A stretch of DNA of 64,000 nt from positions 124,001 through 188,000 of the forward strand of contig NZ_FXTX01000001.1 of NCBI RefSeq assembly GCF_900182795.1. Direction: 5' to 3'. Source of the stretch: Venenivibrio stagnispumantis (GTDB taxonomy: Bacteria > Aquificota > Aquificia > Aquificales > Hydrogenothermaceae). Each line of letters begins with the position of its first letter. The first letter of the stretch is position 1. The position numbers and the translations under genes are program-made. Shown here in pieces: positions 41,554 to 42,027 of this stretch. Under the pieces are notes generated by a model that saw only the letters and a list, made by a program, of their open reading frames with translations, was not told the DNA's origin and ran no database searches.

Positions 41554-41641
41554 TTCGTTAAATTAATGTTAAATTAAATCTGATAAAGCTCATAATATTT
41601 GTGATATAAATATGTTAGCAAATAGTTTCCCCTTTTTATAG

Positions 41642-41890
41642 AGGTTCAAAATAAAGAAAGGATATGCTGTAGATGATATATATCCACGATACACATCACA
41701 AAGATGCAGTAAATGTGGAGCTATCTGTGAAATGTTTTCGCCTAATAGCTCTACTGCATTATTTGGGTGTCAATAAGCAGGTAGGGAAGACGGCTCAGTG
41801 GTGCCGTTGGGAGTTTCCCTGAAAAGTTCTTCAAAAAGATGGACAAAATCTAAGGGGAGTTCCCGAAAGTCAGCAGTTGTTAATGCTTGA
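41642..41890 (+). pseudogene. tnpB: C-terminal remnant of an IS200/IS605-type tnpB
   Basis: The frame from 41642 reads RFKIKKGYAVDDIYPRYTSQ, then RCSKCGAICEMF: the zinc-ribbon start typical of TnpB (YTSQRCSKCG). An in-frame TAA at 41774 breaks it after LFGCQ. The same frame then resumes (AGREDGSVVPLGVSLKSSSK) to TGA 41888. The second CxxC and the DxNA segment that should lie between these pieces are missing, and the N-terminal RuvC domain is absent; a stop lies just upstream (TAG 41639). So this is a decayed fragment with an internal deletion. Most of 41554-41641 is AT-rich, with nothing recognisable. Confidence 0.75.
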
Positions 41891-41940
41891 ATATGTTTTT
41901 TGGCAACTGTTGACACCACGATGGAAATTTTGCAGCCGGT
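41760..41940 (+). ncRNA. Candidate omega-RNA-like structured RNA overlapping the tnpB 3' end
   Basis: GC-richer than its surroundings, with strong hairpins. The first is AGGGAA (41783-41788) running straight into GACGGC (41789-41794), an 8-base loop, then GCCGTT (41803-41808), a six-base bulge and TTCCCT (41815-41820). The second is GTCAGCAGTTG (41869-41879) pairing with CAACTGTTGAC (41904-41914), 11 pairs with one G-U. GGGAG in the bulge (41809-41813) could pair with TTCCC at 41860-41864 as a pseudoknot. Guide RNAs of TnpB elements lie at just this place. The exact ends are not known. Confidence 0.45.
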
Positions 41941-42027
41941 ATAAAACCAATAAAAGCATTAGCTTACAAATATAAAGATATGAAAAATCCTGTTAAAGTT
42001 GTTGTCTGGGTTCAAACAATAGAATAA
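41914..42027 (+). other. Orphan ORF tail right of the IS remnant
   Basis: After a TGA at 41911 the frame is open to TAA 42025 and reads DGNFAAGIKPIKALAYKYKD, then MKNPVKVVVWVQTIE. The last 30 or so residues look like real protein sequence, but no start codon or ribosome site is present in the expected place. It may be the 3' end of a gene cut by the insertion. The parent gene is not recognised. Confidence 0.35.

Follow-up and report, generated by a model that had tools for sequence, protein, structure and literature searches.

Remnant of an IS607-type insertion sequence with a largely preserved omega-RNA core between suhB-like and purF genes of Venenivibrio stagnispumantis

It has been reported that ISFba1, an insertion sequence of the IS607 type (serine TnpA plus TnpB), combines its TnpB with a reRNA derived from RAGATH-18, and that 64% of RAGATH-18 RNAs adjoin an IS607 TnpB, so that about a third do not (PMC11061315). 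In ISDra2, which belongs to the IS200/IS605 elements, the omega-RNA overlaps the 3' end of tnpB, and the 3' end of its scaffold forms a pseudoknot with a loop about 100 nt upstream (PMC10097598).

The window analysed here is a stretch of 64,000 nucleotides from Venenivibrio stagnispumantis, in which a first-pass annotation had noticed a decayed tnpB fragment and an apparently intact guide-RNA-like 3' region. Positions 41777-41919 of the window were identified as the right end, or omega-RNA region, of an IS607-type element. The region as a whole is very likely a decaying deletion derivative of such an element, in which incomplete decay accounts for the surviving RNA fold and a selected function need not be assumed.

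Layout of the locus and the TnpB fragment

The interval between the end of the suhB-like gene (41553) and purF (42132) was found to be debris of genes and insertion-sequence ends, not normal intergenic DNA. On its left side, positions 41572-41620 (plus strand) aligned with the sequence upstream of an intact PEGA/WD40 gene in five relatives, which suggests that they once served as promoter region for a PEGA/WD40 gene that is now destroyed. This segment contains TATAAA (41605-41610), followed by a decayed version of a conserved palindrome, GTTAGTAAATACTAAC. In the relatives (L052, L055, L056, L057 and L060) the palindrome stands directly after a TATAAT-like box, 5' of the PEGA/WD40 gene, where it is a possible operator. 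Next come 22 bp from the terminus of another TnpB-type insertion sequence, distinct from the first (TCTATAAAAAGGGGAAACTATT, 41621-41642, minus strand) and in the opposite orientation. This stretch was the sole match of this motif in the window (0.04 expected), and the motif was also present 3' of other tnpB genes, namely in L008 (contig C25 of the same genome), L033 and L037. On the right side, positions 41920-42027 (plus strand) are a remnant of the PEGA/WD40 gene, in which codons 287-316 are fused to codons 528-533 and the stop (numbering of the L054 protein). The gene is about 530-550 codons long in relatives, directly precedes purF in L057, and was detected in 36 of the 40 other family genomes, the distant ones being matched weakly. 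The window keeps 36 codons and the promoter region of this gene and nothing more, and a search of the same genome with the whole PEGA/WD40 protein found no part beyond the 36-codon scrap.

Between these parts lies a C-terminal TnpB fragment of 41 codons (41651-41776, plus strand; left edge uncertain within 41651-41655). As the first-pass annotation had read it, the frame is broken: positions 41651-41773 matched the Pfam domain Cas12f1-like_TNB with 27.1 bits (cut-off 26.3), the first CxxC is kept, the second is reduced to its first cysteine, and none of the RuvC D/E/D residues is present in the fragment. With half of its zinc ribbon gone as well, the fragment has neither of the features of a TnpB nuclease in full. 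Its DNA is 92% identical to G000:C1:456-578, the corresponding part of another copy in the same genome. Comparison with that copy located an in-frame deletion of 75 bp (C1:579-653) at the junction 41774-41775, which removed the second half of the zinc ribbon, the last RuvC aspartate and the 5' arm of the RNA helix P1, and created the stop codon TAA at 41774-41776. The derived changes in the fragment were mostly non-synonymous.

Structure of the omega-RNA in the family and in the window

The consensus of the relatives comprises five helices (P1-P5) and a pseudoknot. Helices were parsed by hand from 13 sequences, and 12 of them were aligned for the counts, the most degenerate copy (G042) being left out. 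In this alignment 98% of 500 cells were paired, and two-sided changes occurred at 16 pairs, compared with 9.8 for shuffled columns and 2-4 for slid partners; hand parsing and the omission of G042 favour the structure, above all in the percentage paired, and affect the two-sided changes less. Related copies with compensatory changes, whose absence was to count against the RNA according to the first-pass annotation, were thus looked for and found. What they record is selection on the family of elements and not on the window copy. Searches of Rfam with the relatives and the window sequence, whether at the gathering threshold or with E as high as 10, returned nothing relevant, and no RAGATH-18 match was listed.

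In the window, strong helices had been noticed in the 3' segment, and the folding calculations agreed: 41775-41919 folded better than its shuffles (z -4.2). The covariance model of the relatives gave this RNA 78.2 bits (E 4.7e-17) as its sole match in the window, a score that is partly by construction since the window and C7 rows were included in the model. The following elements are all on the plus strand. P2 (41790-41794 with 41803-41807) closes the loop TCAGTGGT, and all five of its pairs covary in relatives. P3 has 12 bp (41809-41820 with 41853-41864) and two-sided changes in six pairs. P4 (41826-41832 with 41838-41844) has a T.T mismatch at 41830/41840, caused by a change from A to T at 41840, which may not matter because P4 is absent from some relatives (G031, G104). 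P5 (41869-41881 with 41902-41914) shows compensatory changes and belongs to the transposon right end as well; it contains the 11-bp stem recognised earlier at 41869-41914, which is real and reaches 13 bp when two further inner pairs are counted. The pseudoknot is formed by GTGGT (41798-41802) and ACCAC (41915-41919), with all five pairs in 12/12 rows. Its second strand is the right terminus of the element, where independent copies share a conserved ...CCAC and then run into unrelated flanks. Both strands are nearly invariant and therefore show little covariation, so that the pseudoknot is supported by conservation and by the analogy with the ISDra2 and ISFba1 scaffolds.

Of P1, the 3' arm (GCAGGTAGG, 41777-41785) remains and its original 5' partner is deleted. 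According to the covariance model and the partition function, a possible substitute arm (41749-41757) can form an imperfect P1 with 41777-41786, with one bulge and pair probabilities of 0.57-0.99; as good a substitute was found in 116 of 1000 shuffles, so the predicted pairing is at the level of chance. The description of the RNA as apparently intact therefore holds for P2, P3, P5 and the pseudoknot, which are complete, and fails for P1, with its 5' arm lost, and for the one broken pair of P4. The family-conserved scaffold helices and the 3' pseudoknot expected of a TnpB omega-RNA are present. Two other pairings had been proposed. The lower half of a composite 6+6-bp stem, AGGGAA (41783-41788) with TTCCCT (41815-41820), could form in the window but lacked conservation, with 79% paired and two-sided changes absent, and the composite stem was rejected as a rival pairing. 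TTCCCT has its partner in AGGGGA (41853-41858) of P3, as it does in the minimum-energy fold. GGGAG/TTCCC, which had been taken for a pseudoknot, turned out to be an ordinary helix at the base of P3.

Relatives in the genome and across Aquificota

Two further copies were found in the same genome, on contigs C1 and C7. The C1 copy has 255 open TnpB codons and is cut by the contig start (G000:C1:2-766); it is 92% identical to the window in the tnpB part and 93% in the RNA part, and its TnpB has all three RuvC acidic residues in the alignment. The C1 element (L004/L011 1-1153, G000:C1) interrupts an apparent gene for a secreted or outer-membrane protein. The C7 copy (L003:1501-1631, G000:C7:35510-35640) is a bare omega-RNA core of 131 bp, which starts right at P2 and has no tnpB or left end; its core scaffold is kept, with one P5 mismatch of its own.

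A search of genome contigs with the C1 TnpB found no relative, and a second search with an alignment found seven loci. Full-length distant copies were located on contigs labelled Aquificaceae, Aquifex and Desulfurobacteriaceae, with a MerR-HTH serine recombinase upstream; in L042, L044 and L045 the recombinase (Pfam Resolvase 82.7 bits, MerR) lies directly upstream of a full-length TnpB. The element was thus assigned to the IS607 type. At the right end, CAACTGTTGACACCAC (41904-41919) is common to independent insertions. At the left, matches of the end motif TAGACACTTGAC in the window were not above chance. No IS607 tnpA was found in the assembly of the same genome, and a weak match on C22 was a larger recombinase of 508 aa, not an IS607 TnpA. 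The IS200/IS605 transposase domain Y1_Tnp was not found in this genome either, and the relatives of the window element use the serine recombinase. Because TnpA is absent from both the window and the assembly, the window copy is regarded as a derivative and not as an intact IS607 member. An interpretation as a mini-element bearing a left end was rejected, since no left end is present and part of tnpB remains. A similar deletion derivative was found in G131 (L091).

When 136 Aquificota genomes were scanned with a covariance model under stricter filters, the RNA was detected in 16; the weakest matches, e.g., in G077, are probably due to chance. Several of the omega-RNA copies had no tnpB. Four, each about 290-340 bp long, are compact IS607-like elements that encode no protein: L080:1323-1661 (G041:C2), L083:1351-1660 (G079:C1) and L082:353-645 (G130:C22), each with a recognisable left end, and L089 around 1501-1740 (G121:C3, minus strand), with its right end cut off. 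In these elements a hairpin of about 60-70 nt with a kink-turn-like internal loop (GGGAGGTTCCC..GATGATGT) precedes P1 and is followed by the omega-RNA and the right end. The hairpin motif occurred in exactly 4 of the 136 genomes, once in each, and not at all in a reversed-pattern control. Such protein-less units with intact helices keep the hypothesis of action in trans alive for the family and give no direct support for the window copy. In L084 (G043) and L090/L016 (G033), which also have no tnpB, homology begins at most a few bases away from the P1 hairpin and no left end was recognised; this is either coincidence or a sign that they derive from the protein-less elements.

Decay, constraint and comparison with known systems

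The favoured account is that an IS607-type element inserted into the PEGA/WD40 gene upstream of purF, that its left end and tnpA, along with the greater part of tnpB and of the host gene, were then lost by deletion, and that the end of a second insertion sequence came to lie beside the remnant. The sequences show the anatomy, the family with its RNA structure, the deletions and the disappearance of left end and host gene; we infer the order of events and also that the RNA is no longer used. The right end and omega-RNA core probably stayed well folded because only a few changes have accumulated, which calls for no selected function. The first-pass annotation had offered two readings, recent decay or retention of the RNA for a role in trans. 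For the former, partial decay is well supported by the deletions, the second insertion-sequence end, the ruined host gene, the missing left end and tnpA, and the non-synonymous changes. Three observations count against the favoured account: the core (P2, P3, P5 and pseudoknot) is complete in the window and kept in C7 too, the rate difference has the direction that constraint would give, and the former host promoter region upstream could drive transcription. When substitutions were polarised with G031, the window lineage had about 7-9 changes in about 120 bp of tnpB, whereas the 143 bp of RNA had 3-4; Fisher's test gave p 0.15-0.23, depending on the treatment of edge sites. The RNA was thus not significantly slower-changing than the dead tnpB, and with such small numbers constraint is neither shown nor excluded. 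The single broken pair among 42 in the RNA is unremarkable, since 36% of simulations with four random changes gave zero or one.

Retention in trans can draw on the nearly complete core, on the cognate TnpB in the same genome and on the intact copies of this RNA that relatives have without a protein. In its simplest form, which we consider unlikely, the remnant omega-RNA would still be usable and would load the C1 TnpB (G000:C1:2-766) with a leftover, unselected guide. That TnpB has the three RuvC residues and an omega-RNA of its own that is nearly identical, and presumably the TnpB of this family works like known TnpBs; however, the contig start truncates the C1 gene, which is thus known here as a partial gene. 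The deleted P1 arm might not be needed, as ISDra2 can do without the sequence 5' of its pseudoknot-containing scaffold (PMC10097598), yet P1 is conserved even in non-coding copies, which suggests that it matters in this family. Transcription could be driven by the former promoter region of the host gene, which is situated upstream of the remnant. The would-be guide, placed by its position after the right end, is GATGGAAATTTTGCAGCCGG (41920-41939, plus strand), but a good second target is lacking: its original target, the uninterrupted PEGA/WD40 gene, is gone from this genome, and the next-best genome matches carry 2 and 3 mismatches. The former lies in a tsaE-like gene and is treated as coincidence, because its mismatches, at positions 3 and 12, fall where double mismatches (positions 1-12) abolished ISDra2 cleavage (PMC10097598). 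A broader version appears improbable. In it the protein-less copies, the window and C7 cores among them, would serve in trans as working guides for the genome's one cognate TnpB. This single nuclease would then have several guides, and one of these would now be transcribed from the promoter of the gene that the element destroyed.

Domestication, by which selection would have kept the RNA as a guide or regulator with a partner protein encoded elsewhere, is more doubtful still and has only a slim chance. Relatives do have protein-less copies with all helices intact, and the RNA has slightly fewer changes than the dead tnpB, but that difference is not significant, the P1 arm is deleted and P4 mismatched, and the would-be guide has no match other than its own ruined host gene; the genus is represented by one genome, hence the comparison contains no orthologous copy. 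A chance origin of the helices in a DNA repeat, without descent from an omega-RNA, hardly deserves consideration: P5 does double as a palindromic transposon end, but in the relatives compensatory changes occur in all four main helices, far above the slid and shuffled controls. The decaying deletion derivative, an ordinary remnant whose omega-RNA core is largely preserved and has little likelihood of still acting in trans, thus remains the preferred reading.

The by-products of the analysis may be of more use than the remnant itself, namely a strongly covarying omega-RNA structure for an Aquificota group of IS607 TnpBs that matched no Rfam family here, and compact relatives that have the whole RNA but no protein gene. 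Should these copies supply a TnpB in trans, the use of several guides by one transposon nuclease would be directly testable in thermophiles.

The locus resembles the IS607 insertion sequences in the serine recombinase gene directly upstream of tnpB in its relatives and in a right end that overlaps the 3' end of tnpB, and differs from them in the window copy itself, with its 41 tnpB codons and neither left end nor tnpA. ISFba1 is similar in having an IS607 TnpB and a scaffold in which the 3' end is joined to an apical loop close to the 5' side (PK2; PMC11061315), comparable to GTGGT/ACCAC, whereas the RNA of the window family, even at E 10, had no RAGATH-18 match listed. With the ISDra2 omega-RNA it shares the form of the pseudoknot and the overlap with tnpB, although ISDra2 is of another element type and sequence, and the part 5' of its scaffold can be spared where P1 is conserved here. 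Like the omega-RNA-like motifs found with no adjacent tnpB, the window copy has no working tnpB beside it, but here the cause is visible as decay by deletion.
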